Assembly: GCA_041690355.1 (NCBI GenBank)
Contig: JAWLHK010000001.1
Span: forward strand, 248,001 to 312,000
Length of the DNA: 64,000 nt
Reading direction: 5' to 3'
DNA from: JAWLHK01 sp041690355 [NCBI: bacterium]
GTDB lineage: Bacteria; J088; JAWLBW01
The notes under the pieces are model-generated. The model was not told the origin of the DNA and made no database searches. It was given only the letters and a program-made list of their open reading frames with translations. Of the stretch, positions 3,919 through 58,245 are shown one piece after another (position 1 is the first letter of the stretch; every line of letters starts with the position of its first letter). The translations under genes and the position numbers were made by a program.

Positions 3919-3970
3919 ATTCCGCCCGCGTGCCCCCTCGGCCAGCCGTGATTTCAGTCGGGCGCGTGCC

Positions 3971-8930: not shown

Positions 8931-9061
8931 CCAGCGTACCCACCCGCCATGCTCAGAGCTTTCTCGCCGTGCGGCGGCCATGGCAGTCTCCATGTGCGTC
9001 AGACCTGCCTCATATTCCACCCGCGTGCCCCCTCGCCCCGCCCCGGCTACAATGGGAAGCG

Positions 9062-9745
9062 GTGTACGAAAAGCTGCGCACAATTGACCGCTTCGCCACG
9101 CTGCCCGAGCCGCTCCTGGCGGAACTGGAGCGCCGGGGACGCTTCTTCAACGTAGCGCGGGGCGAAACCATCTTCTACGAAGGGGATGAGCCCGACCGCC
9201 TGCTGCTCGTCGTCGCGGGGACGGTCAAGATCGCCCGTACGCTCGAGAGTGGCAAGGAGTTCATCGTCGACATCCTCGGCCCCGGCGAAACCCTGGGCGA
9301 AGTCGCGCTGCTCGATGACATGCCCTACCCCGCCTCGGCCGCCGCCCACGCGGATGCAGAGATCTTCGCGCTCCCCCGGGCGGATTACGACGCGCTCCTC
9401 GAGCGCCATCCAGAGCTGGCCCGCGCGACGATTCGCGATCTCGCGGGACGCCTGCGCCAGATCAGCCGGCGCATCAAGGACGTCTCGGGGGGGAACGTGG
9501 ATTACCGCATCGCCCACCTGTTTCTCACGCTGGCCGATCGGCTCGGCCAGGTCGAAGAGGGGCGCACCTGCATCCCGCTGGCCCTCTCGCGCAAGGAGAT
9601 CGCCGATCTCGTCGGCACCTCCGTCGAAACGACGATCCGCATCCTGAGCCGCTGGCAGAAGGAGGGGATCGTCGAGACGCGCAAAGAGGGCTTCTGCATC
9701 CTCGACGAACAGCGGCTCAAGCAGCTGAGCGAGTCGTCGCTGTAG
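9062..9745 (+). CDS. CRP/FNR-family transcriptional regulator, likely Dnr/NnrR-like
   Basis: 227 aa. An N-terminal cyclic-nucleotide-binding-type beta-roll (EGDEPDRLLLVVAGTVKI, GPGETLGEVALLDDMPYPASAAA) is followed by the dimer helix and a C-terminal HTH (LSRKEIADLVGTSVETTIRILSRWQKEG). FNR-type N-terminal cysteines are absent, so it is not an Fe-S FNR; a NO-sensing Dnr/NnrR-like role is inferred from the adjacent denitrification genes. GTG at 9062 is chosen because TACAAT at 9048-9053 lies 8 bases upstream; the frame stays open to 8969 but without supporting signals. The 3' end of this gene is present in three copies (9687, 13783, 15269), so its last 18 codons may come from an inserted element. 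Confidence 0.85.
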   Translation: MYEKLRTIDRFATLPEPLLAELERRGRFFNVARGETIFYEGDEPDRLLLVVAGTVKIARTLESGKEFIVDILGPGETLGEVALLDDMPYPASAAAHADAEIFALPRADYDALLERHPELARATIRDLAGRLRQISRRIKDVSGGNVDYRIAHLFLTLADRLGQVEEGRTCIPLALSRKEIADLVGTSVETTIRILSRWQKEGIVETRKEGFCILDEQRLKQLSESSL

Positions 9746-9748
9746 GCG
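9687..9748 (+). repeat. Direct repeat copy A: 3' end of the CRP-type gene
   Basis: Encodes GFCILDEQRLKQLSESSL plus stop and GGCGG. Copies B (13783-13843) and C (15269-15332) repeat this stretch; all three share CTGAGCGAGTCGTCGCTG followed by TAGGCGG. A is in frame with the intact regulator gene. The arrangement marks the left edge of an insert. Confidence 0.85.
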
Positions 9749-9883
9749 GGTGTGCCTCGCAATCCTCCCCAATAATGGCAGGGCACAGCCGTGCCTATAT
9801 GCCAAAGCCTGAGACACCATAAGCGTCAGACTTGCCAGGCCACCGTCCCCTGCGCCATATACCCTACAAAAACAAATATAGCT

Positions 9884-9912
9884 TGACATGCGCACATCCA
9901 GGCGCTACAGTC
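9884..9912 (+). promoter_or_regulatory. Strong sigma70-type promoter for the 868-aa lipoprotein gene
   Basis: TTGACA at 9884-9889, 17-bp spacer, TACAGT at 9907-9912; predicted start about 9919, giving a 25-nt leader with GAGGAT before the ATG at 9944. This is the best-looking housekeeping promoter in the window and lies inside the insert. Confidence 0.75.
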
Positions 9913-9943
9913 TGCCTACCTAGCAATCTTTACCGAGGATAAG

Positions 9944-12550
9944 ATGCGCAAACTAGTGTTTCGAGCTGCCGTCCTGCTTATCGCTGCCTGCACCGGACGT
10001 CAATGCACAGCCTGTGAGTCGTGTGAGCCCACACTTTACGACGAAATCACGCTGAACGAAGTCCCGACGGACACGACAAACGAAGCAGTAGAAAGCATCT
10101 TTCTCTATTTCTCACCCGGTCACCACACGGTGTCCAATGACGAGGTCCGGTTAGACAACATAACACCGAAGGGCAATGGGCCGGAGAGTTACCTTGTGGG
10201 TATGCAGTACAGTTACCTGGGTGGTACGTGCTTTGAGTCTGTGCCTATTCCTGGCACCGATCGTACTTTCGAACTCCCAGAGCCCCTCTGTCAATATGAG
10301 TTGGAATCGGTCATCCGGGTCGTGCCTAAGTCTGACGGCCGCTACGTTTCAGGTCGCACGGTGGGTGGGAAAGTCATTCGCGATCTGAACTTTACAGTCG
10401 AACAGCAAATCACGGGGGTTGTATACGATCCCCTTCCTTGCGAAGGCGACGCCGGCGAGCCCATTCTTGAGATACCGCTCCCACCCGTTGGTTTGGGGTG
10501 CGTCTACTCGTTCTCCGGGAATGCAACGATGCCTGCGAGGCACAGTTGGAACTGGGTGCGCCGCTATCGAGAACAGACAAGGATGATTGGACAGGCACTT
10601 GAAATTGGCGTCTCCCCGAATGATGAAGGATTCATTGTCAATGAACTTCCGGCTCCGGTTGGGGAGTGTGTCCCGGTCCGGCTGACTGAACTCAGCCACA
10701 ATGTCATAGGGGATTTGGCCTTCGCTTCAACCGGGGGGGTCAGCGAAGAGGCCGGGGCTTGGCTGCGAACGAACTTCCTGCCTACGATTCAAACCCTGGG
10801 CAGAACTGTAGCTCAAGAGGTGCTGACCAATTTCTCTCGCACCGGACCGGTTGCCGTCTCGACCGACCAGCGCCCCCCCGCCGGGGCCGTACTCCTGGAT
10901 TCTTTCTCAGGAGCCCATTCGGGGTTTCTCACGTGGCTTGAGAATCAAGACACGCACATCCGATTTGGGGTGCATGACGGGGGTGCCGATGTCATGCCGC
11001 CACAACCGTTGCTGGATTGCCACCCGATCAGTCAGGCGGCTACGCCGGGCTTCCCGCGCTCGTTTCATTCAGGGATGGCTCCGTCGGGGGAGGGCAATAT
11101 CCATTTCCGCTTCGAGCGTGGGAATCAAGTTCAGTCGACTCCGGATTCTTTGGCCCTGAGAGGGGCCCCACCCTTTAACGTTCTGGGCGACCCACTTTGG
11201 TTTGTCCAAATGTCACGGGTGAGACCTAGAGACAGTGACAAATTCTTCGTGATCCATAATTTGCATGAGAGCGTAGCTGTGCAGTTCTGTCCTTTGGGAC
11301 CGGATGGCAAGAGTTGCCCTCGCCCTGCCATCGGCGAAAGTTGTGGCTTCGGTTTGGACGGTGTGGAGGATGCCTTTACGTGCCGATGGCGAACAAACGC
11401 ACCGGATCCTGCCGACCCCTCAACGTGGGAGTACACCTACGAGCGACAGCCAATCGTGTTCAGCCCGTATTCAAAGGAAAACATGCACCCCTATCCGGAC
11501 ATTGGCTGGGCTGAGACGAATGGGGATGGCTATCTTAATCAGTCTGAACTTCCCGTAATGTTCGTGCCGAATTTCCGCTATGACATGACCCCCTACCTGG
11601 TGCCTGGGTCCTACGGTGTGAAGTTCTGGCTGTCCCATGAGCGTGACGCTGAGCAAGACTTCCATAAGGCCAATGACTTCGACCGCTCTACTGCAAGGCA
11701 GATGGGCCACGCCTCCACCTACTATTACGATGTAGAATCCGAAAGGTGCGCCGTTGAGGAGAGCGCAAGTATTGCGGGCGACACCGCCATCGTAACTGAA
11801 GCGCGCGCGTTTCGTGATGAAACACTGATGAAGCACAGACTTGGCTTCCTTGCCGCCCGTAAGTACTATCATGTGCAGGAAGATATCAAGAAGGCCGTCG
11901 TACAGAATCCTGCCCTGGCTGGCAAGTTCATTGAAATTGCAAGGGTTGCGCTGGAAGTAGCGGCCGCATTTGAAAATGCCAGTCCCACCGACTACTCAAG
12001 GCCGGTCATCGATCGCCGCTCAGGCGAGAAGATTAAGGCATTCATCGACGAGTTGATCGTCGCCAATGCAGGTAAGGGTTTACGTGACACGCTGGAGGCT
12101 TTCCGCATCGGCCTCATCATGGTGGCGCTCCCGAACGCGCAGAACCCATCCGGGGGCAACTACCTGACTTTCGGGGACGTCATACGCCTCAAGTCAGGGC
12201 AATTGGAGTGGAAATCTGCGACCAGCAGGAACGATCAGTGGCTCAACTACTTGAAACACTACCACCGAAAGCTGAACCCGGCGTTCAGCTCGAGGATAGA
12301 CTCTTTGGAGAGTCTGGTGACACAGAATTTCGAGGGGATGGTTGCCGTTTTCATCCAGTTCCCCGAGTTATTCATCCAGTTTATCGAGTCTGCGGGTGTC
12401 GACGCAGGGGATGAGCAGATCTCGCTGGCGCTGGCGGCAATCGCAGAAGCCTCACAGGACCCTGCAGTCATGGATAACATCCGTAACTTTCTAGAGTCGA
12501 ACGACCTTGACGACTATATAGACGTTGGCGACTGGGTGGAGCTTCCGTGA
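9944..12550 (+). CDS. Large secreted lipoprotein of unknown function with one EF-hand-like loop
   Basis: 868 aa. Signal peptide 1-16 with lipobox (IAAC). I recognise no family. Visible features: several cysteines spread through the N-terminal two-thirds, an EF-hand-like acidic loop (TNGDGYLNQSELP, about residue 527) and a helical C-terminal third (~630-868) with repeated aromatic/aliphatic helices (FIQFPELFIQFIES). It has its own strong promoter and overlaps the next gene by GTGA, so it is translationally coupled to the first RCC1 protein. Base composition is less G+C-rich than the flanks. It belongs to the insert bounded by CRP 3'-end repeats, so a surface complex with the RCC1 propellers is a reasonable inference but untested. 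Confidence 0.7.
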   Translation: MRKLVFRAAVLLIAACTGRQCTACESCEPTLYDEITLNEVPTDTTNEAVESIFLYFSPGHHTVSNDEVRLDNITPKGNGPESYLVGMQYSYLGGTCFESVPIPGTDRTFELPEPLCQYELESVIRVVPKSDGRYVSGRTVGGKVIRDLNFTVEQQITGVVYDPLPCEGDAGEPILEIPLPPVGLGCVYSFSGNATMPARHSWNWVRRYREQTRMIGQALEIGVSPNDEGFIVNELPAPVGECVPVRLTELSHNVIGDLAFASTGGVSEEAGAWLRTNFLPTIQTLGRTVAQEVLTNFSRTGPVAVSTDQRPPAGAVLLDSFSGAHSGFLTWLENQDTHIRFGVHDGGADVMPPQPLLDCHPISQAATPGFPRSFHSGMAPSGEGNIHFRFERGNQVQSTPDSLALRGAPPFNVLGDPLWFVQMSRVRPRDSDKFFVIHNLHESVAVQFCPLGPDGKSCPRPAIGESCGFGLDGVEDAFTCRWRTNAPDPADPSTWEYTYERQPIVFSPYSKENMHPYPDIGWAETNGDGYLNQSELPVMFVPNFRYDMTPYLVPGSYGVKFWLSHERDAEQDFHKANDFDRSTARQMGHASTYYYDVESERCAVEESASIAGDTAIVTEARAFRDETLMKHRLGFLAARKYYHVQEDIKKAVVQNPALAGKFIEIARVALEVAAAFENASPTDYSRPVIDRRSGEKIKAFIDELIVANAGKGLRDTLEAFRIGLIMVALPNAQNPSGGNYLTFGDVIRLKSGQLEWKSATSRNDQWLNYLKHYHRKLNPAFSSRIDSLESLVTQNFEGMVAVFIQFPELFIQFIESAGVDAGDEQISLALAAIAEASQDPAVMDNIRNFLESNDLDDYIDVGDWVELP

Positions 12551-13767
12551 ACAGATTCACCCTACTGATAATTAGTAGCATCGTGATCCAAGGGTGCCAA
12601 GGCGAACCGCCCTCGACCAAGCCAGGCGCCATCATTGAGGTAGAATACCCTACAGGCATCACGCAGGCTGCAGATCTATCAGAGGTCACAATCCTGTCGG
12701 CCGATCAGAACTATTCCTGTGCGGTCGCAACCGGGGGTGTGCCCTATTGCTGGGGCGACAATGAGACAGGACAGCTCGGCCACCAAGACCTCCCGAACTC
12801 GGCAACCCCCGTTTCGCTGCCCACGCCACTCGAACCACTCACACACTTTACGGCCGGCCTGAACAGGGTGTGCGGGCAGACAGTTCAGGGCCAGACTTAC
12901 TGCTGGGGAAATACCGATGTCGGCTCCATCAAACATCGCACACTCGAAACGCCGTATCAGATTCAAGGGCTACCGAAACTGCGCGTGCTGGATGCAGGCG
13001 GACTTTTCGACTGTGGGATTGATGACAGACATCGTGTCTTCTGCTGGTTCATCCATTGGCCCGTCGAAAAGGACCAGTTCGAGAACGCGTTTTACATGCC
13101 GAACACCGAGGCCGTTTCCGTCGCCGCAGGTGGTCTCCACGCGTGCGGCCTCGACCCACACGGTTTCGTATCATGCTGGGGCGAATGGGCGGTGACCCTG
13201 GGACCCGTATGGCAGAACCCGCCTGAAGGCGTCGGCAGCCCGGGAGATATTTACGACCTGAACGGTGTCCCTGCGATGCCCATTCATGCGTGGCAGGTGC
13301 CGCTACCAGCTTCCACAAAGAAGATCGCGGCTGGGGTGAACCATACGTGTGCGCTTCTGGAAACCGGGGCCGTCTATTGCTGGGGATACAACCTGAACGG
13401 CGTACTCGGTCTTCCACTTACAACCGAATACAGTGCCAATCCGGTTGCAGTCGTTTCTTCCGGGGCCACCGACCTGTATGCAGGCAATCTGACCACTTGC
13501 ATTCGGCGACAGGATGGAAAATTTTCCTGCTGGGGCCAATGGCTGTTTGAAGATGTCGACCTGGAGGCCTGTTCTTCAGCTTTTGAGCTTCCCGACGCTT
13601 GCATTCGTCTTCGGCCGGAGGTAACGCCCCTCCCACGCGAGCTGAGCTTGCTTGCGATCGGAAACTACCATCTTTGCTACTATACCGATCGGGTCTACTG
13701 CCTGGGAAAAGATCGGTACGGCCAGCTGGGGCTCGGTGAAGCCGCGTCGACTTCGACGCTACCATGA
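12547..13767 (+). CDS. RCC1-type seven-repeat propeller lipoprotein, copy 1
   Basis: 406 aa. Lipoprotein signal (MNRFTLLIISSIVIQGC, lipobox IQGC). Seven repeats each carry a cysteine pair in the pattern C-x(9-12)-CWG, e.g. YSCAVATGGVPYCWGDN, HACGLDPHGFVSCWGE, HTCALLETGAVYCWGYN and a final CYYTDRVYCLG, consistent with a seven-bladed RCC1-like beta-propeller with a disulfide per blade. The GTG start overlaps the previous stop (GTGA), indicating coupling. A close paralogue follows at 14031; both end in STSTLP. RCC1-like secreted proteins are common in Myxococcota; no enzymatic activity is expected and the ligand is unknown. Confidence 0.85.
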   Translation: MNRFTLLIISSIVIQGCQGEPPSTKPGAIIEVEYPTGITQAADLSEVTILSADQNYSCAVATGGVPYCWGDNETGQLGHQDLPNSATPVSLPTPLEPLTHFTAGLNRVCGQTVQGQTYCWGNTDVGSIKHRTLETPYQIQGLPKLRVLDAGGLFDCGIDDRHRVFCWFIHWPVEKDQFENAFYMPNTEAVSVAAGGLHACGLDPHGFVSCWGEWAVTLGPVWQNPPEGVGSPGDIYDLNGVPAMPIHAWQVPLPASTKKIAAGVNHTCALLETGAVYCWGYNLNGVLGLPLTTEYSANPVAVVSSGATDLYAGNLTTCIRRQDGKFSCWGQWLFEDVDLEACSSAFELPDACIRLRPEVTPLPRELSLLAIGNYHLCYYTDRVYCLGKDRYGQLGLGEAASTSTLP

Positions 13768-13782
13768 GCAAGGCGCCCAGAA

Positions 13783-13843
13783 GGGCTTCTGCATCCTCGA
13801 CGAACCGCGGCTCAGGAACTGAGCGAGTCGTCGCTGTAGGCGG
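13783..13843 (+). repeat. Direct repeat copy B: non-coding copy of the CRP-gene 3' end
   Basis: AGGGCTTCTGCATCCTCGAC and the following CTGAGCGAGTCGTCGCTG-TAGGCGG repeat 9687-9748 almost exactly, with a one-base deletion (CTCAGGAACTGAG against CTCAAGCAGCTGAG) that breaks the reading frame. It starts 16 bp after the first RCC1 gene and has no upstream CRP coding sequence, so it is a gene fragment. Confidence 0.85.
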
Positions 13844-13890
13844 AATGCGCATCCTGCCCGCGCTCTTCACGGGCGCCGGCCAAGCGATCG

Positions 13891-13920
13891 TTGACAGGAT
13901 CTTTCGCCCTGCGGTATAGT
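13891..13920 (+). promoter_or_regulatory. Sigma70-type promoter for the second RCC1 gene
   Basis: TTGACA at 13891-13896, 18-bp spacer, TATAGT at 13915-13920. It predicts a leader of about 105 nt before the ATG at 14031, unlike the leaderless style of many neighbours. Confidence 0.7.
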
Positions 13921-14030
13921 TCGTATCCTTAGCGATAACGCACAGGTGCGCTCGCCAAGGCTCTCCCAGGCGTGGAGGCCTGGTGCGGAACGCGAGGGAA
14001 TGGCCGCCCCCAAGGCTGACGGAGTCTCCA

Positions 14031-15254
14031 ATGCGAACACTGACCCTCCTGACCATCGGCTGCGCGATCTTCCTCGGATGCCGGGGGGATACGGGAACAT
14101 CCTCTCGCAGGCTCACAGACGACGTCGAGGTAGAGCACCCTGCCGGCATTACGCAGGCGGCTGATCTATCAGGGGTCATCATCCTGTCGGCCGAGCAGAA
14201 CTATACCTGCGCTGTTGTTGACAAGGGTACACCCTATTGCTGGGGCCAGAACCACAAAGAGCAGTTCGGCCACCAGGACATCCTGAGCTCAGCCACCCCC
14301 GTTTCACCGCCTACGCCCCTCGAGCCATTCACCCACCTTTCGGCCGGCCTGAGCAGGGTCTGCGCCCAAACGGAAAAGGGGGAGACCTACTGCTGGGGTC
14401 ATACCGATGTGGGCCTGCTCGCACATCGTAAGCTGAGCCAGCCATACCTTGTTCAAGGTCTGCCGAAACTTGAAGTTTTGGATACTGGAGCACTTTTTGA
14501 TTGCGGCGTAACCGCAGAGCAACGCGTCTATTGCTGGTTCATCTACTGGTCAGAAGAGAACAAACAATTCCAGAACGCGTTTTACATGCCGAACACCGAG
14601 GCTGTCTCCGTCGGCGTGGGCGGGCTCCACGCATGCGGCCTCGATGAAGATGGTTTTGTCTCCTGTTGGGGCGAGTGGGATGTGACCCTGGGTCCGATAT
14701 GGAATCAATCTCCGGAGAATACAGGCTCTCCGGGCAAACCCTTTGAACTGAATGGCATCTCTGCAACACCGATCCGTGCTTGGCGCGTTCCGCTTCCGGC
14801 TTCGACAACGAAGATTGCTGTCGGGGGGCGACACACTTGCGCGCTTCTAGATACGGGCGCCGTCTATTGCTGGGGGTACAACTGGGGTGGTGAGCTGGGA
14901 CTCCCACTCTCAACGGATATCAGCGCAACCCCTGTTCAAGTTATCGCCTCCGGCGCCACCGACGTGCACGCCGGAAATTGGCTGACCTGTGCTCGCCTGC
15001 AGAGTGGCGACTTTTCCTGCTGGGGCGAATGGATTTTCGATAGTGAGGACATGGACGCCTGTATACAACGTTCGGTTCCGGAGGACTCCTGCATCCGTAG
15101 GCCAACATCCGCGCCGCTCCCCAGGAACCTGAGCCTGCTCGCGATCGGGAATTACCACCTTTGCTACTATTCGGACCGGATACAATGCGTCGGTTGGGAT
15201 CGGTACGGCCAACTGGGGCTGGGTGAACCCGCGTCCACGTCGACGCTCCCATGA
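14031..15254 (+). CDS. RCC1-type seven-repeat propeller lipoprotein, copy 2
   Basis: 407 aa, a full-length paralogue of the protein at 12547, collinear throughout (ITQAADLSGVIILSAEQNYTC, seven C...CWG repeats, ending LGEPASTSTLP). Lipoprotein signal MRTLTLLTIGCAIFLGC. The ATG at 14031 is preferred over the in-frame ATG at 13983 because the signal peptide begins there and ACGGAG precedes it. Unlike copy 1 it lacks an upstream 868-aa partner and has its own promoter, so it looks like a separate cassette bounded by repeats B and C. DNA identity to copy 1 is high in blocks (for example around the FYMPNTEA codons), indicating duplication or gene conversion. Confidence 0.85.
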   Translation: MRTLTLLTIGCAIFLGCRGDTGTSSRRLTDDVEVEHPAGITQAADLSGVIILSAEQNYTCAVVDKGTPYCWGQNHKEQFGHQDILSSATPVSPPTPLEPFTHLSAGLSRVCAQTEKGETYCWGHTDVGLLAHRKLSQPYLVQGLPKLEVLDTGALFDCGVTAEQRVYCWFIYWSEENKQFQNAFYMPNTEAVSVGVGGLHACGLDEDGFVSCWGEWDVTLGPIWNQSPENTGSPGKPFELNGISATPIRAWRVPLPASTTKIAVGGRHTCALLDTGAVYCWGYNWGGELGLPLSTDISATPVQVIASGATDVHAGNWLTCARLQSGDFSCWGEWIFDSEDMDACIQRSVPEDSCIRRPTSAPLPRNLSLLAIGNYHLCYYSDRIQCVGWDRYGQLGLGEPASTSTLP

Positions 15255-15268
15255 CGCAGACTGCCTGG

Positions 15269-15332
15269 ACGGTTTCCGCTTCCCCGACGCGGCACGGCTC
15301 AAGGAGCTGAGCGAGTCGTCGCTGTAGGCGGA
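15269..15332 (+). repeat. Direct repeat copy C: diverged CRP-gene 3' end
   Basis: In frame it would encode DGFRFPDAARLKELSESSL plus stop, a diverged homologue of the end of the CRP-type protein (EGFCILDEQRLKQLSESSL). It sits 4 bp before the end of the convergent NnrS-like gene, which is where the 3' end of the CRP gene would have been before the insert arrived. Confidence 0.8.
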
Positions 15333-15336
15333 GGCG

Positions 15337-16557
15337 CTAGGCCTCGCTGCCGGCCGTGCGACGCGCGGGCCGTTGCGTGTCGGGCACCAGCGCGGGCGCG
15401 AGCTGAACGGCGTACCAGAAGACGCCCCCGTAGAGGAACACCGCCGAAGCCGCGACGATCCCCGCCGCTGCGGGGAGCATCGGTTCCGCCGTTCGCAGGA
15501 GCACGCCCAGCGTGACGAGCGCGAGCACGGCGCAGTATCCGCCAACGGATGCGCGGCGCGTGCGCAGCATGCTCGGGAACACGCGCTGCGTGAGCCCCAT
15601 GACGAGCAGCAGGGCGAACCCCGCGGCCACCTGGTGGCGGGCCACGTCGACCCAGAAGTAACCGTTGCCCGGCAGCCCGCCGGCGCGACCGAGCAGGTGC
15701 ACCAGCCCCGAGAGGGCGAGAAAGCCGAAGGCGATGCGCACGTAAAGTCGCAGCACGGCGTCGAGCTCGGGTTCGCGTTCGATCCCCATGCGCACGCGGC
15801 GCGGCGCGAAGACGCGCATCCCCCAGGCCGCTGCCAGCCCGCCAATGGCAGAAGCCGCCGCACCCGGAATCGACCACGGTGCGGGCGCCCAGTCGGCGAC
15901 GGCCATTCCCGCAGGGAGCAGGAAGGCCCCCGCCGCGACGATCCGCTCGTGGGGAAAATCGAGGCCGACCATGGCGGGCAGCATGCGCACCCCCATGGCG
16001 AGCGTGATCGGCACGATGCTTCCGTAGACGAGCAGGTGCGTTCCGCCCGGCGATCCCCACGGGGTAAAGAGGACGATCGCCGTGGCGACCGGGGCCATCG
16101 TCAATCCGCCGAGAAGCATGAGAAAGGGGGCCTCGAGAAGCGGCCGTTCGCTCTGCAGCGCCGCATGCCAGAGCACGGCCGTTCCGCCGAGGAGCGCGGC
16201 GAGGACCGCTGCGCCGGCCGCCATGCTTCCCGCGCGGAAATCCACCAAGTGGACGCTCACGAGCGCGGCGAGCGCGGCCGCCAGCGCGAACATCCACGCG
16301 ATCATGCGGGGACCCCAGGCGCGCCCGCCGCCGAGCATGCCCGGCATGCCGCGGACGAGAAAGGCCCAGATGAGCACGAGAAAGAACCCGAGCGACTGGA
16401 CGAGCGCGTGCACCCACGCCGGCACCGCCGCCAGGGGGAGCGGCCACCCCGCGTAGCCGAGCAGCCGCACGAGCCCGAGCGTGCTTCCGGGAATGACGAG
16501 AAACGCGAGCGCGATCGCGAGCGATGCCCGAATCGGGTGTGTGTTTTTCCAGAACAT
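15337..16557 (-). CDS. NnrS-like multi-pass membrane protein
   Basis: 406 aa, about 12 hydrophobic segments throughout, with the NnrS/heme-copper-like signature RHQVAAGFALLLVMGLTQRVFPSML near residue 320. NnrS proteins protect against or respond to NO during denitrification. The ATG at 16557 is chosen because TATACT (16570-16565) lies 7 bases before it; the frame runs on to 16611 but that would overlap the divergent DUF2249 gene. An ATGAT-N4-GTCAC dyad at 16594-16607 is centred about 42 bp from the predicted start, matching activation by a CRP/FNR protein. The 3' end abuts direct repeat C. Confidence 0.75.
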   Translation of the reverse strand: MFWKNTHPIRASLAIALAFLVIPGSTLGLVRLLGYAGWPLPLAAVPAWVHALVQSLGFFLVLIWAFLVRGMPGMLGGGRAWGPRMIAWMFALAAALAALVSVHLVDFRAGSMAAGAAVLAALLGGTAVLWHAALQSERPLLEAPFLMLLGGLTMAPVATAIVLFTPWGSPGGTHLLVYGSIVPITLAMGVRMLPAMVGLDFPHERIVAAGAFLLPAGMAVADWAPAPWSIPGAAASAIGGLAAAWGMRVFAPRRVRMGIEREPELDAVLRLYVRIAFGFLALSGLVHLLGRAGGLPGNGYFWVDVARHQVAAGFALLLVMGLTQRVFPSMLRTRRASVGGYCAVLALVTLGVLLRTAEPMLPAAAGIVAASAVFLYGGVFWYAVQLAPALVPDTQRPARRTAGSEA

Positions 16558-16593
16558 GACCAGAAGTATAGGGCCCCGGGGGCGAAAAGGGGT

Positions 16594-16607
16594 ATGATAT
16601 CCGTCAC
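16594..16607. promoter_or_regulatory. Probable CRP/FNR-type operator (ATGAT-ATCC-GTCAC)
   Basis: One mismatch from the ATGAC-N4-GTCAT palindrome seen before nirK and between nor and nnrS. Centred at about -42.5 relative to the start predicted from TATACT on the minus strand, it suits activation of the NnrS-like gene. It overlaps TATGAT (16593-16598), the likely -10 of the DUF2249 gene on the plus strand. Confidence 0.55.
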
Positions 16608-16609
16608 CC

Positions 16610-16897
16610 ATGCCCGTGTTTCCCAGCGATCTGCCCGACGACCCCCGTATCCGCGCGTGGCAGGATGAGACCGGGCGCCGTCACCTCGACGTGCGCGAGC
16701 TCCTGCTCGACGGCGGCGAGCCCTACCAGCACATCATGAGTGCCGTGAATTCGCTTGCCCCTGGCGAAACGATGACGCTGCACGCGATCTTCGAGCCGGT
16801 TCCCCTCCTCCGCAAACTCGGGCGCCAGGGCTACGGCCTCGCTTCCGTCCACGTCGGCCTCGACCACTGGGCCCTCGACATCCGCCGGCCGGAGTAA
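16610..16897 (+). CDS. DUF2249 domain protein
   Basis: 95 aa soluble protein covering one DUF2249 domain: LDVRELLLDGGEPYQHIMSAVNSLAPGETMTLHAIFEPVPL and a C-terminal LDHWALDIRRP. DUF2249 proteins are frequent beside nitrite/nitric oxide reductase genes and have a TusA-like fold; the molecular role is not established. Divergent from the NnrS-like gene with a 52-bp shared promoter gap and followed by nirK 121 bp downstream. TATGAT at 16593-16598 is 11 bases before the ATG, so the leader is at most a few bases. Confidence 0.85.
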   Translation: MPVFPSDLPDDPRIRAWQDETGRRHLDVRELLLDGGEPYQHIMSAVNSLAPGETMTLHAIFEPVPLLRKLGRQGYGLASVHVGLDHWALDIRRPE

Positions 16898-26227: not shown

Positions 26228-27388
26228 TTGGATGTGATTCGAATCCGTACGCAGGAGTCCGGCGGACCCGCTCTCTGGGCCACGGGGTTCCGCCCTTTCT
26301 TTCTGCTGGCCGGCGCGTGGAGCACCCTGCTCGTGGTGCTGTGGGGCGGCTTTCTTGCCGGCGTGCTCCCGCTCCCCGCCTGGAATCCGGTCGCCTGGCA
26401 CGGCCATGAAATGCTCTTCGGCTATACGTCCGCCGTCATCGCGGGCTTTCTGCTCACGGCCGCGCGCAACTGGACGCAGCTGCCGACCGCGAGCGGACGT
26501 GCGCTCCAGGGTCTCGCGGCGCTCTGGCTGGCAGGACGTGTACTGCTGCTTGCCGGCACCGCCGTTCCCCCCGCGCTGGCGCTCGCCGTAGACGTCGCTT
26601 TCTTCCCCGCGCTCGCGCTGGTGGTCGCGCGGCCGGTCGTGCGCAGCCGTAACTGGCGCAATCTTGCCTTCGTCCCCATGCTGCTCGGATTGGCGGCGCT
26701 GAATCTGTTCTGGCACCTGCGCCCTGAACTTTCGTCGCGCCTGCTGTGGACGGCAACGGGAATCGTCGTGCTCATGATGACCCTCGTCGGCGGGCGCATC
26801 ATTCCCTTCTTCACGCGCAACGCCCTCGAAGTTCCCGCGCGCCCGCTGCGCTGGGCCGACTGGAGCGCCTTGTTCCTGACGCTGGCCGTCGTCCTGCTCG
26901 ACGCGGCCGCCTGGGCCGAACCGGTTCCGTGGATCGCCGGCGCCGCCGCCCTCTTTCACCTGATCCGCATGCTCGGCTGGCAGTCTCTCGCGACGGCGCG
27001 CACGCCGATCCTCTGGGTGCTCCACCTCGGCTATCTGTGGATCCCCATCGGGTTTCTCCTGCGCGCGCTGCCGCTCTCGATTCCCCCGACGGCCGCGCTG
27101 CACGCCTTCACCGCCGGGGCCATCGGCATGCTCACCCTCGGCATGATGACCCGCGTCTCACTCGGGCATACCGGCCGGAACATTGCGGCCGATGGCGGAA
27201 CCGCGGTCGCCTTTCTGCTCGTTCTGCTCGCGGCGGCGCTCCGGGTCGCCGGGCCGATCGCCGCGCCCGCCTTCGCGAACACCTGGCACCTGTCCGCCGC
27301 CGCGGCATGGACCGTCGCGTTCGCCTGGTTCGTCATGCGCTATGCCGGCATTCTGGTCACCCCGCGCCCCGACGGACGTCCGGGGTGA
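26228..27388 (+). CDS. nnrS: NnrS family membrane protein
   Basis: 386 aa, about 12 transmembrane segments. N-terminal GFRPFFLLAGAWSTLLVVLW and WHGHEMLFGYTSAVIAGFLLTAARNW, then GGRIIPFFTRNA and HAFTAGAIGMLTLGMMTRVSLGHTGR are the NnrS signature blocks (conserved His and Met, haem- and copper-containing in the characterised Rhodobacter protein). It limits NO/nitrosative stress. TTG at 26228 is the start, with AAAGGAGG 8 bases upstream. Divergent from norC with two shared FNR-type sites. Confidence 0.93.
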   Translation: MDVIRIRTQESGGPALWATGFRPFFLLAGAWSTLLVVLWGGFLAGVLPLPAWNPVAWHGHEMLFGYTSAVIAGFLLTAARNWTQLPTASGRALQGLAALWLAGRVLLLAGTAVPPALALAVDVAFFPALALVVARPVVRSRNWRNLAFVPMLLGLAALNLFWHLRPELSSRLLWTATGIVVLMMTLVGGRIIPFFTRNALEVPARPLRWADWSALFLTLAVVLLDAAAWAEPVPWIAGAAALFHLIRMLGWQSLATARTPILWVLHLGYLWIPIGFLLRALPLSIPPTAALHAFTAGAIGMLTLGMMTRVSLGHTGRNIAADGGTAVAFLLVLLAAALRVAGPIAAPAFANTWHLSAAAAWTVAFAWFVMRYAGILVTPRPDGRPG

Positions 27389-29390: not shown

Positions 29391-29401
29391 GCGGCGCGTA
29401 C

Positions 29402-29441
29402 AAAGCGCCAAGCGCCAAGCGCCAAGCACTGAGCGCTGAGC
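29402..29441. repeat. Heptamer array, CAAGCGC (GCGCTTG) family
   Basis: Five to six copies of a 7-bp unit reading GCGCCAA/GCACTGA/GCGCTGA, 11 bp after the stop of the MpaB-type gene. Confidence 0.85.
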
Positions 29442-29471
29442 ATGAGGACGGGAAGGTTTCCCGGTTCTCCT

Positions 29472-29602
29472 ACCGTTCGTGTCGAGCCGACGGTCGCAGG
29501 CGGTAGCCGGAGACGACGGCGAGACAGTCTCATCGTTCTCAGGTGCGCTCCCTCGCTGTCGCGCTCCGCTCTGCTTCACGCGGTCAGCTCGGGACGAACG
29601 GT
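29472..29602. repeat. 131-bp palindromic repeat element, copy 1
   Basis: Begins ACCGTTCGTGTCGAG and ends CTCGGGACGAACGGT, so the termini are inverted repeats of about 20 bp; an inner pair CGGCGAGACAG/CTCGCTGTCG adds a second stem. A second copy is at 43467-43598. No coding capacity; a REP/MITE-like non-autonomous element. Confidence 0.8.
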
Positions 29603-29635
29603 CGGGGGCGCTGGGCGCTGGGATGTTCTTGCCTA

Positions 29636-29687
29636 AAAATCGTCAATCGTAAATCGTCAATCGTAAATTCGCGTCACTCGTCACTTG
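29636..29687. repeat. Heptamer arrays, TTGACGA and GTGACGA families
   Basis: Read on the minus strand: GTGACGA units at the PII gene stop, then alternating TTTACGA/TTGACGA heptamers. The first units encode the last residues (SDE) and stop codon of the PII-like gene. Confidence 0.85.
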
Positions 29688-31854: not shown

Positions 31855-34602
31855 ATGGAACCGCGACTCGACACACACTGGTATCGACTCTCCTCCGAAG
31901 AATCGCTCCGCAGGCAGAACGTCGACGAGGCCCGGGGACTTTCCGATGACGAAGCCCGGAAGCGTCTCGAAACGTTCGGGCCCAATGAGCTGACCGAGAA
32001 GCAGACCCGCCCGGCGTGGAAGATCTTCGCCGCCCAGTTTGCATCGACGATCATCGTCGTACTTATCGTCGCGGCCGGTGTTTCTGCATTCATGGGCAGT
32101 TACAAGGATGCGATCGCCATTCTGGCCATCGTGTTTCTGAACGCCATTCTCGGCCTCGTTCAGGAATACCGTGCCGAGCAGGCGATGGCCGCCCTGCGCA
32201 GGATGTCGACCCCGACGGTACGGGTGCGCCGCGAAGGCGGCATCCGGGAAATCGACGCAGTGCAGATCGTGCCGGGGGACCTCCTGGTTCTGGAGACCGG
32301 GAACCTCGTGCCCGCCGACGGCCGCGTTCTCGAGGAGGCCAATCTGCGCGTGCAGGAAGCGGCGCTGACCGGCGAGTCCGAAGCGGTCGAGAAAGACGCC
32401 GACCCCTTGACCGGCGAAGACATTTCCCTCGGCGATCGGAACAACATGGTCTTTCGCGGAACCTACGTGACCTACGGCCGCGGCTCCGTGCTGGTGACGG
32501 CGACGGGCATGCAGACCGAACTCGGCCACATCGCGACCCTGCTGCAGAGCGTCGAGCGCGAGGCGACTCCCCTGCAGCGGCGGCTCGCGTCGCTCGGACA
32601 CGGTCTCGTGCTTCTCGCCCTGGTGGTCGCCGCGGTCATTTTCGCCCTCGGCTATCTGCGCGGCGAGTCGATGCAGGTGCTGTTCATGACGGCCGTGAGT
32701 ATCGCGGTCGCCGCCATTCCCGAAGGTCTGCCCGCCGTCGTGACCATCGCCCTCGCCCTCGGCGCGCAACGGATGCTGCGGCGCCGCGCCCTGATTCGCA
32801 AGCTTCCGGCCGTCGAGACCCTCGGCTCCGTCACGGTCATCTGTTCCGACAAGACCGGTACGCTGACCGAAAACCGGATGACCGTCACCATGCTCGACAC
32901 GGCCAACCACCGCGTCGACCTTTCAGAACATCTGCGGCGGACGACCGGCGTCATCGACACCGACGCACCTGAACTTGCACCGGTATCCACGGCCCCATCG
33001 ATGAAGCTGCTGCTCGCCGGCGGCGCCCTCTGCAACGATGCGGAACTGCAGAAGCGCAAGACCGAGCAGGATCACTATCACGCCGTCGGAGAACCGACCG
33101 AGGCAGCCCTCGTCGTCGCCGCGGCCCGCTTCGGATTCAATCGCGGCGAACTCGCCGGGCATCTGCCGCGCCTCGATGAAAAACCGTTCGACTCGGAGCG
33201 GAAACGGATGTCGACGCTGCACCGGATCGCCGGCGACGGCGAGGTGAGCGGGATCCTCGGGGCCGCAAATGGCGGCACGCGACCCGGGGCGGCCGTCTTC
33301 ACGAAGGGCGCCGTCGACAGCCTGCTCACCGTCTGCGATCGCGTGCTCGCGGCCGAAGGCGTCGAGCCGTTGAACGATCACTGGTGCCGGCGGATACTCT
33401 CGGCCCACGACGAACTCGCCTCCCAGGGCGTGCGCGTGCTCGGGTTTGCCTGGCGCCCGGTCGACGACCCCGCCGCCCCGGGCGAACTGGAAGAGAAACT
33501 CATCTTCGTCGGCTTTTTCGGCATCATCGATCCGCCGCGGCCCGAGGTGCGCGACGCGATTCTCACCTGCCGCTCGGCGGGGATCCGTCCGATCATGATC
33601 ACCGGCGACCACCCGGCCACGGCGCGGTCCATCGCCGAAGATCTGCACATCGCGGATAATCCCGGCACGGTCGAGGGGAGACAGCTCGACAGGATGAGCC
33701 CCGAGGAACTGTACGAGCGGGTCGAGACCACGTCGGTGTTCGCGCGGGTTTCTCCCGAGCACAAGCTGCGGATCGTAGAGGCGCTTCAGAAGCGGAGCCA
33801 TGTCGTCGCCATGACCGGTGACGGCGTGAACGACGCCCCCGCGCTCCGGCGCGCGGATATCGGCGTCGCCATGGGGATCACGGGAACGGACGTCTCGCGT
33901 GAAGCGGCCCACATGGTTCTCCTGGACGACAACTTCACGACCATCGTGTCGGCCGTCGAAGAGGGGCGGACGATTTACGACAACATCCGCAAGTTCGTGA
34001 AGTACTCCGTCGGGGGGAACCTCGGCAAGATCCTGGTCGTGCTCCTGGCCCCGCTCCTGCTCATGCCGATGCCGCTCACGCCCCTGCAGATCCTGTGGCT
34101 GAATCTATTGACCGACGGGCTGCTCGGCCTTGGCCTGAGCGTTGAACCGCCGGAGCCGGGGGTCATGCAACGCCGGCCGATCCCCCGCTCACAGCCGTTC
34201 TTTTCCCGCGGCATGCTCGGGCAGATCGTTCTCGTCGGCGTTCTGGTCGGCGGAGTGTCGCTCGGCCTCGGGTACTGGACCTGGGCGACGGGCGAGGGCG
34301 AGTGGCAGACGCTGGTCTTCACGACGATCGCCACGGCTCAGATATGGCAGGCGCTCGCGGTGCGAACCAATGTGCAGAGCCTCTTCCACGTCGGGCTCTT
34401 CAGCAACCGGGCCATGCTCGGCGCGGTCGCAGCGGTCGTGCTGTTGCAGCTGGCCGTCGTGTACCTGCCCGTCCTGCAGGGCGTCTTCGGGACGAGGCCG
34501 CTCGCGCCGGAGCAGCTGTTGCTTTCCATCGCGGCGGGAAGCCTGGTCTTCTGGGTCCTCGAGTTCCGCAAAGCCCTCGTCAGGCGCGCGATTGATTCCT
34601 AA
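31855..34602 (+). CDS. Calcium-type P-type ATPase (P2A, SERCA-like)
   Basis: 915 aa cation pump. N-terminal cation-ATPase domain ([19 protein letters not shown]), actuator TGES at 172-175, M4 motif [10 protein letters not shown] (ion-binding PEGLP, 289-293), phosphorylation D332 in [10 protein letters not shown], hinge [22 protein letters not shown] and a C-terminal set of four to six membrane helices ([22 protein letters not shown]). The PEGL motif and NLLTDGL favour Ca2+ (or Mn2+) export. TACAAT at 31841-31846 lies 8 bases before the ATG with no Shine-Dalgarno, so the mRNA is probably leaderless. The last codons (D, S, stop) are the first unit of a TTCCTGA-type repeat. Confidence 0.93.
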
Positions 34603-34717
34603 TTCCTGATTCGCGTCTGATTCCTGATTCCTGATTCTTAATTCCTAAGAAGCAAGGACAAAGGAACCCACGTCCTTTCGGGTCAATCGTCAATCGTAAA
34701 TCGTAAATTGTCAATCG
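34593..34717. repeat. Heptamer arrays, TTCCTGA then TTGACGA families
   Basis: TTCCTAA/TTCCTGA/TTCTTAA heptamers run from the ATPase stop to 34647, then GCAAGGACAAAGG, then TTGACGA/TTTACGA units (minus-strand reading) up to the stop of the GMC gene at 34721. The whole 118-bp gap between convergent genes is repeat. Confidence 0.88.
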
Positions 34718-34720
34718 AGT

Positions 34721-36436
34721 TCATCCGCGGTCGCCGATGACGTCGCCGCCCGTGCGCTCGATTTCTTCCATCGGCACGTCGAGGCCCTTGTCGAGGACCG
34801 GCGGCTGCGCGAGCGCCTCGTAGCCGATCGGCGGGCGCGGCTCGACCCCCGCTTTGGCGGGAACGTGAGCCATGGCGAACTCGCTGAGCGCCGTGATGCT
34901 CAGGCTCGGGTTGACCCCCAGGTTCGCCGGGAGCATCGACCCGTCGCAGACGTAGAGGTTCTCGTAGTTGAAAACTTTGCAGTGCTGATCGACGACACCG
35001 CTCTCGGCGTCGCGGCCGATGCAGGCGCCGCCCATGATGTGGGCCGTCGTCGGCACGTCGAAGAGCACTTCGTTGAAGGAGCTGAGCGGAATTCCGTTCA
35101 CGCGCTTCGCCAGGCGGCGCACGAAGTCGTTGGCGATGGGGATGTAGCTCGGCGGCTTCTTCTGGCCGGGGGCGTAGTGGCTGTCGAGCGTCTTGGAGAA
35201 GGGCCACCACCAGCGCCGCCGCAGGCCGAGGCTCATGTAGTTGTCGAGCGTCTGCATGACGAGAATGATGATCGTGCGCTTCGCGAAGTTCACCGGCGAA
35301 AGGGTGCGCAGAAAGTGCAGCGGGTGGCGGAAAATGTTCCCCACGAAACGCAGCTGGCGGGGGACGGCGCCGCCGCCATCGGTGAGAATCGTCGAGAGGG
35401 GCGCGATGGCGTCGCTCCCCTGGGAATAGCGGACGATCTCGATGTGCGTATCCTCGTCGGGATGGACGCCGGAGGTAATCGCGATCCCCTTGCTGACGTC
35501 GACCGTGGCGTCTTTCTGGCGCACGCCTAGGATCGCCTCGCTGTTCGTACGCACGTAGTCGCCGAGGCGGGGCGAGAGGCGTGGAAGCGTCCCCTTCTCC
35601 TTGCAACGCAGCAGCAGCTCGTTGGTCCCCAGGGCGCCGCCCGCGACGACGACGCCGCGCGCGCGGTATGTCTTTTTCCCCTTGAAGAAGCGGGCCGTGG
35701 AGTGCACGGTCTCCACCTCATAGCCGCCCCCCTCGAGCTCGCGGATGAGCGTAGCCTTCGTTTCGGGGATCACGGTCGCGCCGCGTTTCTCGGCGAGGTA
35801 AAGATAATTCTTGTCGAGCGTGTTCTTCGCGCCGACACGACAGCCGACCATGCATCCGCCGCAGTAATTGCAGCCGATGCGATCCGGACCTTCGCCGCCG
35901 AAGTACGGGTCGGGGACCGTCTTGCCGGGGGTGCCGAAGTGGACGCCGACCGTGGGGCGGTGGTAGGTATCGGCCTTGCCGTACTCCGCGGCCACGTCCT
36001 TCAGCAGGCGGTCCATCGGGGTCGTGATCGGGCTCTTCGTCACGCCGAGCATGCGCTGCGCGAGCTGATAGTACGGCAGCAGCTCATGATAGACGTCGGC
36101 GCCCTCGGCTCGTCCGAACGGAGCGGGCTTGAAGACCTTTTCGGGCGGAACGAGCAACGTGTTCGCGTAGACCAGCGACCCGCCGCCCACCCCGACGCCG
36201 CTCAGGATGAGCCCGTCGCGCAACATCGTCATGCGCATGATCCCGTGCATCCCCAGGGCGGGAGCCCAGAAGAACTTGCGCAGGTTCCAGTTGGTCTTGG
36301 GGAAGTCGGTGGGTCCGAAGCGCTTGCCCGCCTCGAGCACGGCGACCTTGTACCCCTTTTCGCTCAGGCGCAGGGCAGAGACCGAGCCGCCGAAGCCGGA
36401 TCCGATGACGATATAGTCGTAGTCGAAGGTCTGCAT
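34721..36436 (-). CDS. GMC-type FAD-dependent oxidoreductase, cholesterol-oxidase-like
   Basis: 571 aa. N-terminal FAD-binding GSGFGGSVSALRLSEKGYKVAVLEAG, substrate/FAD loop GVGVGGGSLVYANTLL and C-terminal GMC signature (AHIMGGACIGRDAESGVVD, YVCDGSMLPANLGVNPSLSITALSEF). The cysteine cluster IGCNYCGGCMVGCRVGAKNT is typical of the ChoD-like/steroid-oxidoreductase branch. Cytosolic or membrane-associated; it likely oxidises a sterol-like or long-chain alcohol. ATG at 36436 chosen since the FAD motif follows directly; the open frame to 36667 crosses a repeat array and is rejected. Confidence 0.88.
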   Translation of the reverse strand: MQTFDYDYIVIGSGFGGSVSALRLSEKGYKVAVLEAGKRFGPTDFPKTNWNLRKFFWAPALGMHGIMRMTMLRDGLILSGVGVGGGSLVYANTLLVPPEKVFKPAPFGRAEGADVYHELLPYYQLAQRMLGVTKSPITTPMDRLLKDVAAEYGKADTYHRPTVGVHFGTPGKTVPDPYFGGEGPDRIGCNYCGGCMVGCRVGAKNTLDKNYLYLAEKRGATVIPETKATLIRELEGGGYEVETVHSTARFFKGKKTYRARGVVVAGGALGTNELLLRCKEKGTLPRLSPRLGDYVRTNSEAILGVRQKDATVDVSKGIAITSGVHPDEDTHIEIVRYSQGSDAIAPLSTILTDGGGAVPRQLRFVGNIFRHPLHFLRTLSPVNFAKRTIIILVMQTLDNYMSLGLRRRWWWPFSKTLDSHYAPGQKKPPSYIPIANDFVRRLAKRVNGIPLSSFNEVLFDVPTTAHIMGGACIGRDAESGVVDQHCKVFNYENLYVCDGSMLPANLGVNPSLSITALSEFAMAHVPAKAGVEPRPPIGYEALAQPPVLDKGLDVPMEEIERTGGDVIGDRG

Positions 36437-36487: not shown

Positions 36488-36614
36488 CAAGTGACGAGTG
36501 ACGAGTGACGAATCAGGGCAATTTACGATTGACGATTTACAATTGACGATTTGTCGGCAAGAACAGGACCTAGTCCTTGTTTCCTTGGCGCTCAGCGCTT
36601 GGCGCTTGGCGCTC
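36488..36614. repeat. Composite heptamer mosaic (GTGACGA, TTGACGA, linker, GCGCTTG)
   Basis: On the plus strand: GTGACGA units, AATCAGGGCA, TTTACGATTGACGA units, a linker GTCGGCAAGAACAGGAC, then GGCGCTCAGCGCTTG units. The same order recurs at 47917-48060 and, inverted, at 42479-42577. Fills the gap between the GMC and fumC genes. Confidence 0.88.
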
Positions 36615-42472: not shown

Positions 42473-42478
42473 CTGCGG

Positions 42479-42577
42479 AAGCGCCAAGCGCCAAGCGCTG
42501 AGCGCCAAGGAAACAAGGGCCATGTCCTGTCCTTGCCGGCAAATCGTCATTCGTCATTCGTAAATTGTCAATCGTCG
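42479..42577. repeat. Composite heptamer mosaic, inverted orientation
   Basis: GCGCCAA units, then GGAAACAAGGGCCATGTCCT, then CTTGCCGGC linker, then TCGTCAT/TCGTAAA/TTGTCAA units: the reverse complement of the mosaic at 36520-36614. Its right end supplies the TTG start codon and first codons of the symporter gene at 42565. Confidence 0.88.
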
Positions 42578-43598: not shown

Positions 43599-43605
43599 AA
43601 CTTGC

Positions 43606-43650
43606 GTCCTTGCCGGCAAATCGTCAATCGTAAATCGTAAATCGTCAATG
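43606..43650. repeat. Linker plus TTGACGA-family heptamers
   Basis: GTCCTTGCCGGCAAA followed by TCGTCAA/TCGTAAA units, i.e. the right half of the composite mosaic seen at 42530. No gene in 43429-43788; the remainder holds TAAGAT at 43768-43773, a possible -10 for ftsK. Confidence 0.8.
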
Positions 43651-43788
43651 GAGACAGCCTCTGTCTCACCCTTGTGCGACCCTATGATGCGCGTTCTTGC
43701 TGGTACCGACGTCCGACGTCCGGCGTCCGACGACCGCTCGGGTTTGACGATCCGCCGCTCCGCTCAGTAAGATGTAGAGGCCGCCCTC

Positions 43789-47428: not shown

Positions 47429-47914
47429 ATGCCCAGTTTCGACGTGGTCAGCGAAGTCAATCTGCAGGAAGTCGACAATGCCGTGAACCAGGCCATGAAG
47501 GAGATCGGCCAGCGCTACGACTTCAAGGGGACCAAGTGCGAGATCACGCACAAGGAGAAGGTGCTGCACATCGTCGCCGACGACGACTACAAGCTCAAGG
47601 CGACCATCGACGTGCTGCTGGGCAAGCTGGTGAAGCGCGGCATTCCGCTGAACAACCTCGACCACGGCAAGGTCGAACCGGGGCCGGGCGGCACGGTCAA
47701 GCAGGACCTGACGATCGTCGTGGGCATCCCGACCGAGAAGGCCAAGAAGATCGTCAAGGAGATCAAGGACTCCAAGATCAAGGTCCAGGGGGCCATCCAG
47801 GGCGAAGAGGTCCGCTTCACGGGCAAGAACCGCGACGACCTGCAGGAGACCATCGCGCTGCTCAAGAGCAAGGACTTCGGGCTGAGCCTGCAGTTCACGA
47901 ACTTTCGCGAATGA
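47429..47914 (+). CDS. yajQ: YajQ-family nucleotide-binding protein
   Basis: 161 aa, full length for the family. Starts PSFDVVSEVNLQEVDNAVNQ and contains RYDFKGTKCEI, DDDYKLKATIDVL, KQDLTIVVGIPTEKAKKIVKEIKDSKIKV (in parts) and EVRFTGKNRDDLQ. YajQ proteins bind nucleotides; one homologue binds cyclic di-GMP and modulates transcription. 32 bp after lolA, probably the same operon. The stop is followed within 3 bp by a heptamer array. Confidence 0.95.
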   Translation: MPSFDVVSEVNLQEVDNAVNQAMKEIGQRYDFKGTKCEITHKEKVLHIVADDDYKLKATIDVLLGKLVKRGIPLNNLDHGKVEPGPGGTVKQDLTIVVGIPTEKAKKIVKEIKDSKIKVQGAIQGEEVRFTGKNRDDLQETIALLKSKDFGLSLQFTNFRE

Positions 47915-47916
47915 CG

Positions 47917-48060
47917 CGAATTGACGATTTACAATTTACGATTGACGATTTGCCGGCAAGGACCTGAGCACCTTGTTGCCGGTCAGCGCTTGGCGCTTCT
48001 CCAAGACCGCTTCGTTCTTATTTCCTCGGCGCTTGGCGCCTAGTGCTTAGCGCTTGGCGC
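47917..48060. repeat. Composite heptamer mosaic
   Basis: TTGACGA/TTTACAA/TTTACGA units, linker GCCGGCAAGGACC (47952-47964), then GCGCTTG-family units at 47984-47998 and 48028-48060. Same order as 36520-36614. The right end encodes the C-terminus and stop (PSAKH, TAG) of the SRPBCC gene on the minus strand. Confidence 0.88.
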
Positions 48061-48693
48061 CGGGCGCTCTGCGCCCGTCGTGACCGCCTGCGGATTGGCC
48101 GGCGGCGCGATGTGGGCCTGGGTGGGGGTCTTGCGGCGGCGGGCGACCTCGGCGCGCACGTCGTCGACCAGACGGCGCGAAGCGCCCTGCTGCAGACTGT
48201 CGCGGACGAAGCCGGGAACCCACATCCCCGCATCCGCATACTGCTCCATGACGAGCCAGGTCCCCTTTCCCTCGGGTCCCGGGAGAAAGTGGTAGCGCCC
48301 CGTGAGCGACTTGAAGTCGCCGCTGTGGCGGGTCCAGCGCACTTCGCGTTCGGCCGGAAAGTGCACGCGGCGCAGGACGTACTTTGCGGTCTTGAACGTG
48401 AAGTCCATCTCATAGGCCACGTCGATCGTCTTCTCGTCGACGCGGGTGGTCGTCGTCTTCTCGACCTTGTTCAGCCACTTCGGGAACGAGGCGTAGTCGG
48501 TCAGCACCGCGTAAACCTCGTCGGGCTTCGCGTCGACCCAGCCGCAGAAACGCGCGCCCCGCACGCCGTCATCGCTCGTCCGCTCTTCGACGCGGATGTC
48601 GCCGTCGGCCTTCGCAGCCACGGTCGCGCAGAATTCCGCATCCGACATCCCGATCATTCCGGCGAGCGCCATCGCCAATACCGCTGTCAGCAT
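48040..48693 (-). CDS. SRPBCC/START-like lipid-binding-fold protein
   Basis: 217 aa, exported (signal AVLAMALAGMIGMSDA). SRPBCC/polyketide-cyclase fold: GWVDAKPDEVYAVLTDYASFPKWLNKVEKT is the hallmark first helix-strand (positions ~52-80), then YEMDFTFKTAKYVLRRVHF, RYHFLPGPEGKGTWLVMEQYAD and the C-terminal helix VRDSLQQGASRRLVDDVRAEVARRR. A periplasmic lipid or hydrophobic ligand binder is likely. The last residues (ERPAPSAKH) and the TAG stop are read from a GCGCTTG-family heptamer array, so the native C-terminus has been replaced. Confidence 0.8.
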   Translation of the reverse strand: MLTAVLAMALAGMIGMSDAEFCATVAAKADGDIRVEERTSDDGVRGARFCGWVDAKPDEVYAVLTDYASFPKWLNKVEKTTTTRVDEKTIDVAYEMDFTFKTAKYVLRRVHFPAEREVRWTRHSGDFKSLTGRYHFLPGPEGKGTWLVMEQYADAGMWVPGFVRDSLQQGASRRLVDDVRAEVARRRKTPTQAHIAPPANPQAVTTGAERPAPSAKH

Positions 48694-58127: not shown

Positions 58128-58137
58128 GGCCAGACGT

Positions 58138-58245
58138 AAAGCGCCAAGTGCCAAGCGCTGAGCGCTGAGCGCCGACAAAAGCTAGGACCTGCGGCTCGAG
58201 TGTCTTTGCCTGTATTCGTCACTCGTCACTCGTAACTCGTCACTT
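58138..58245. repeat. Heptamer arrays, GCGCTTG and GTGACGA families
   Basis: GCGCCAA/GTGCCAA/GCGCTGA units begin 10 bp after speA; GTGACGA-family units (minus-strand reading) end at the stop of the lipoprotein gene at 58245 and, over about 30 bp including the variant unit GTTACGA, equal the array after the kinase gene at 908-938. Confidence 0.88.

Follow-up and report, generated by a model that had tools for sequence, protein, structure and literature searches.

The locus described here raises the question of how the 3' end of a Crp/Fnr-type regulator gene (crp) came to be present three times in a row, with genes for lipoproteins lying between the copies. It is located in a stretch of 64,000 nucleotides of bacterial DNA, all of which was analysed and which is referred to below as the window. 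Directly observed in this DNA are the three copies and the order in which they stand, the unequal divergence among them, and the atypical composition of the cargo that they enclose (Table 1). As an explanation we propose two successive Campbell-type insertions at the 3' end of crp, with the most distal copy as the displaced original end, and we judge this reading to be moderately likely.

Table 1. Coordinates of the crp gene, the copies of its 3' end, the two proposed units with their genes, and the neighbouring gene (positions in the window).
Feature	Coordinates	Strand	Remarks
crp, Crp/Fnr-type regulator gene	9062-9745	+	cNMP_binding 83.8 bits, HTH_Crp_2 67.0 bits
Copy A	9688-9749	+	Present crp 3' end plus GCGG
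Unit E1 (~4.1 kb)	9750-13843	+	Ends in copy B; spacing of copies A and B 4094
Sigma-70-like site upstream of the E1 genes	9883-9911	+	TTGACA-17-TACAGT; 10/12 matches, consensus only
868-aa lipoprotein gene (E1)	9944-12550	+	No known family
RCC1a, RCC1-repeat lipoprotein gene (E1)	12547-13767	+	RCC1_2 74.3 bits, RCC1 69.4 bits, both above cut-off
Copy B	13783-13843	+	One base deleted, frameshifted; 25-bp core identical
Unit E2 (~1.49 kb)	13844-15331	+	Ends in copy C; spacing of copies B and C 1488
Sigma-70-like site upstream of RCC1b	13891-13920	+	TTGACA-18-TATAGT; 11/12 matches, consensus only
RCC1b, second RCC1-repeat lipoprotein gene (E2)	14031-15254	+	RCC1_2 68.5 bits (ORF from 13983)
Copy C	15270-15331	+	In frame, diverged; probably the original crp end
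Convergent gene	15337-16611	-	Hydrophobic product (by eye)

The last 62 bp of crp (9688-9749) were found twice more downstream, as copies B and C. For the gene itself we picked the GTG at 9062 as the start codon; the open reading frame opens at 8969. Copies A and B match in 58 of 62 alignment columns (58/61 ungapped), and copy C is in frame and identical to copy A at 51 of 62 positions. Common to all three is an exact 25-mer, CTGAGCGAGTCGTCGCTGTAGGCGG, located at 9725, 13819, and 15307. With up to three mismatches permitted, this core had no match in any of 100 shuffles. The claim of an earlier note on this DNA, that the tail of the regulator gene recurs once in a frameshifted form and once in a diverged, in-frame form, is confirmed. 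In the 37 columns 5' of the core, matches number 33 between copies A and B (with one gap), 26 between A and C, and 26 between B and C (with one gap). At the 13 columns that vary, copy B is like A at nine, like C at two, and like neither at two, one of the latter being the gap of copy B. A reading of the repeat as an RNA structure was rejected, as an Rfam gathering search of the window returned no matches and folding of the core was not significant (z of 0.10 to 0.22 in four folds, by a general fold test that is not specific for attC sites).

As a control, the 3'-terminal 62 bp of 43 predicted genes, each extended by 6 bp, served as queries against the whole window. Apart from crp, only the two RCC1 genes, matching one another, and a lipoprotein gene at 48898-49461 had a second copy of the 3' end at E < 1e-10. 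Weaker matches, with E values from 5e-6 to 0.01, were obtained for other genes, and several of these are intergenic simple repeats. Imperfect intergenic runs of units of about 7 bp (for example TCGTCAA/TCGTAAA and GCGCTTG) are scattered over both strands of the window, at 909-1064, 29396-29685, 34595-34729, 36490-36614, 42478-42576, 43605-43653, 47906-48062, and 58111-58252.

The content of E1 and E2 is limited to three lipoprotein genes, and the units have no integrase or transfer genes of their own. All three genes encode cysteine lipoboxes, as read by eye. When codon use was compared, as the earlier note had proposed, the insert genes held the lowest GC3 values of the 44 genes in the window (0.631, 0.634, and 0.654). 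These values are at least 5 sd under the mean of 39 other genes (0.853, sd 0.039, minimum 0.735), a mean that leaves out the five lowest genes, namely the three cargo genes, a Fic gene (0.697), and the gene at 49527-50105 (0.72). The note had described segments of lower G+C that carry only lipoprotein genes and have their own promoters. The lipoboxes and the three lowest GC3 values uphold the first two parts of this description, but the promoters do not go beyond consensus sites, and the three sigma-70-like sites in the region are not in excess of the number in shuffles (mean 2.0, sd 1.3). Within E1 the start of RCC1a overlaps the 3' end of the 868-aa gene by 4 bp. RCC1a also matches WD40_RLD with 139.2 bits, which is below the cut-off of 150 for that profile. 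The 868-aa protein matched nothing in Pfam at E ≤ 10, in NCBIfam at 0.001, or by tblastn at 0.01 among plasmids and phages, and had no relative in viral contigs; its predicted fold, with a mean pLDDT of 33.8, is uninformative.

To assess which copy could be the original end, the body of Crp was scored against the HTH_Crp_2 profile with tail A (67.0 bits), with tail C (62.7 bits), and with no tail (53.9 bits). While below tail A, tail C scored above 10/10 randomly decayed tails (55.9-61.2 bits) in a control of ten draws only, for which tail A received an equal number of changes and any draw that contained a stop codon was removed ahead of the scoring. Based on its score relative to the random decays, which is modest evidence, copy C looks like a former coding end of crp, and it is probably the displaced original end. 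The stop codon in copy C lies approximately 10 bp from the stop codon of the convergent gene. The layout is that of the e14/icd type, in that copy A is full and in frame at the near side and copy C is in frame and profile-compatible at the far side.

The convergent gene beside copy C had been labelled NnrS-like in the earlier note. This label was not sustained, as no Pfam NnrS match was obtained at E ≤ 10. The gene has no Pfam or NCBIfam match; at E ≤ 10 there is one chance-level Pfam match, which is far below the cut-off. A gene at 26228-27388, away from the crp repeats, is recognised as NnrS by Pfam. Between 17019 and 19913 the window contains nirK, to which a cytochrome c is fused, together with an FGE-domain gene and a SCO gene. 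This nirK-FGE-SCO order is shared with the Azoarcus plasmid pAZKH, where NirK is 62.7% identical; the 19.3 kb of pAZKH examined has no annotated crp-type gene.

Judged by their divergence, RCC1a and RCC1b are old paralogues, with identities of 69% at the nucleotide and 65% at the amino acid level, a dN of 0.25, a dS of 1.14, and an identity at fourfold sites of 0.49 over 157 sites. Copies A and B are near-identical by comparison; the binomial probability of 58 matches in 61 ungapped positions is about 5e-15 at an identity of 0.49 and 7e-7 at 0.693. In-place duplication with free drift is thus unlikely, and the split of the RCC1 genes seems to be far older than the repeats around E1. For the core of copies B and C, the probability of 25/25 matches under drift is about 2e-8 at the fourfold-site identity of 0.49 and 1e-4 at the overall identity of 0.693. 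The RCC1 pair itself contains a 31-nt identical run, so an identical 25-bp core is by itself not exceptional. Pairwise comparison of the 60 bp immediately to the right of copies A, B, and C gave no significant similarity (P 0.25, 0.24, and 0.31), nor did comparison of the initial ~190 bp of E1 and E2 (P 0.79). The drift probabilities, together with the dissimilar right flanks and unit starts, favour segments that diverged elsewhere and came separately, E1 being the latest. The junction between RCC1 and the tail is homologous in E1 and E2 and has nearly equal spacing, a result that duplication would yield likewise.

In the mechanism that we propose, segments with lipoprotein genes would enter the 3' end of the resident crp-type gene one after another, each by a single reciprocal (Campbell-type) recombination. 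Each insertion would supply a new working last 62 bp and shift the old end downstream. Copy A would thereby be the current end, copy B the junction between two segments, now degenerate, and copy C the displaced original end beside the convergent gene, with the insertion of E1 presumably the last event. The agent may have been an integrase acting in trans, which would correspond to a CIME-like state, or host recombination across short repeats. The earlier note had likewise suggested a two-step integration at the 3' end with copy C displaced. This suggestion is supported in part, as it fits the pattern of divergence (near-identical copies A and B beside an RCC1 dS of 1.14), the spacing of the stop codons, and the score of tail C.

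The absence of an integrase or transposase, also claimed in that note, holds for the window: no integrase, recombinase, or transposase family was listed among the 44 predicted genes, which were searched with Pfam or NCBIfam and comprise ORFs of 90 aa or more. Matches to mobile or transfer families that stayed below the cut-offs were judged uninformative, namely those of the Fic protein to 'mobile mystery protein B' (34 bits against a cut-off of 124.4) and of the FtsK gene to the TraB and TraD ATPases. ARAGORN found no tRNA target within the window. Just 5' of crp, a 22-bp direct repeat with one mismatch (3919-3940 and 9014-9035) encloses a TetR gene, a gene for a 922-aa tandem-95 repeat protein, and the low-GC3 Fic gene.

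The lipoprotein gene identified in the 43-gene control has a paralogue directly downstream of it, at 49527-50105. The bodies of these two genes (48898-49461 and 49527-50105) are 51% identical at the DNA level, and at their ends 45 bases match over a common stretch of 46 bp. Third bases at codons for the same residue agree in 14/15 cases in the ends and in 31/54 cases in the bodies (Fisher P 0.013). The downstream gene has a low GC3, which is 0.694 in its body, and is followed by a terminator-like hairpin that is not found after the upstream gene (by eye). Also judged by eye, the 46-bp repeat is unrelated to the crp core. The repeat may be the result of gene conversion, and it could be the product of the process acting at crp, here at another gene. 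As a second, sequence-unrelated 3'-end repeat in the window it hints at host recombination or gene conversion, and on this basis we lean slightly towards host recombination, rather than an integrase in trans, as the agent at crp.

Flanking direct repeats are natural substrates for tandem duplication. A single insertion into the crp 3' end, of a segment ending in RCC1 with a crp tail, could have been followed by unequal crossing-over at the flanking repeats, which would duplicate RCC1 and tail in place, the extra lipoprotein gene being either gained by E1 or lost from E2. The paralogy of RCC1a and RCC1b and the nearly equal spacing at which the tail is joined to them are in keeping with such a history. 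At a dS of 1.14, however, tails B and C, being free of selection, would be expected to have drifted, and a 25/25 core would have the probabilities given above (2e-8 or 1e-4, for identities of 0.49 or 0.693) unless conversion or constraint had acted. Conversion or constraint would also be needed to account for the near-identity of copies A and B, and the starts of E1 and E2, which lack significant similarity (P 0.79), argue against duplication as well. We consider this course of events unlikely, though not far-fetched.

Gene conversion might instead have kept alike the remnants of old crp paralogues, with no mobile segment being involved. Copy B, a mosaic of nine A-like, two C-like, and two other columns, would suit this explanation, and another gene pair in the window has a 3' end that looks converted. 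The low-GC cargo between the copies would nevertheless be left unexplained, as would the fact that copies B and C hold just the last 62 bp of crp, and we regard conversion of this kind as quite improbable. Copy C could also be viewed as an in-frame alternative tail, as expected if the regulator had a system that generates diversity or shuffles its C-terminus, with copies B and C as the donor tails. Yet copy A has adenines at 4/11 of the A/C differences only, the 44 scanned genes contain no reverse transcriptase or recombinase family, and a reciprocal exchange between direct repeats would be expected to delete the cargo; we find such a system scarcely credible. A diversity-generating retroelement in particular was rejected on the grounds of the missing reverse transcriptase family and the 4/11 adenines. 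An integron cassette array was rejected as well, given that no integrase family was found in the 44 genes and that the fold of the core has a z of 0.10 to 0.22.

The layout at crp follows a known pattern, while the target is unusual and no recombinase gene is nearby. The e14 prophage of E. coli is described as sitting in the 3' end of the protein-coding gene icd, to which it brings a replacement end, leaving the 163-bp old end as a downstream pseudo-end (PMC6379469). Going by that description, the crp locus is similar in having a replacement end near and a putative old end far. It differs in that e14 is a prophage, whereas E1 and E2 are only ~4.1 and ~1.5 kb, contain lipoprotein genes only, and have no recombinase among the scanned genes. 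CIMEs of Streptococcus salivarius are described as integrase-less units of 1.2-13 kb that are bracketed by att sites and stacked at the 3' ends of genes (rpmG, rpsI, and fda) (PMC7563491, PMC5704250). E1 and E2 resemble the units so described, as they lack an integrase and are stacked at a gene 3' end; the copies that bracket them, with their identical 25-bp core, may act as att sites. However, CIMEs are by definition decayed ICEs or IMEs, whereas the crp locus gives no sign of such an ancestry or of a helper element, and it is a crp-type gene that is targeted. The H47 genomic island of E. coli is reported to be small, to lack its own site-specific recombinase, and to excise over short direct repeats in a RecA-independent manner by an unknown agent (PMC5426353). 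The units at crp are similar in being small, with short direct repeats and no recombinase of their own, although the repeats and the cargo differ. Integron gene cassettes are single-gene units, each of which ends in a recombination-like site. E1 and E2 likewise end in a repeat, but this repeat is the end of a gene and does not fold significantly, and no integron integrase is present in the scanned genes. Among the literature matches listed (titles and starts of abstracts), there was no report of a crp 3' end as a target, which is no proof of absence.

The searches for relatives of the locus returned distant matches only. The scan of genome contigs returned one distant Crp (26% identity) and no uninterrupted crp junction, and the genome contigs and viral contigs scanned contained no empty site, no excised form, and no further insertion of E1 or E2. 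A Crp match was present in 55 of 60 genomes treated as relatives, none of them close (best E 1.4e-28, 30% identity). The viral contigs contained no close relative of the Crp, RCC1, or 868-aa proteins, and a 23-mer of the core was absent from them. In plasmids, Crp matches were obtained in 1055 records and RCC1 matches in 31, all below 60% identity, with a best Crp identity of 36.8% among the matches listed; in phages, RCC1 matches were limited to three Synechococcus phage records at 21-22% identity. Searched as DNA against plasmids, the crp 3' end matched one record over 23 bp (E 0.09), outside the repeat.

Should the insertion reading be correct, a crp-type regulator gene would be a further protein-coding gene whose 3' end serves as a docking site, and the units docked there would be very small, with one or two genes, no recombinase, and lipoproteins as their cargo. 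With a second such case, unrelated in sequence, within these 64 kb, one could test whether host recombination by itself is able to stack genes at gene ends. A broader proposal, which we hold to be very unlikely at present, is that this lineage adds foreign lipoprotein genes, one or two at once, to the 3' ends of various resident genes by means of 46-62 bp end copies and host recombination, with no dedicated integrase. If true, this would provide a cassette-like route to a larger lipoprotein repertoire.
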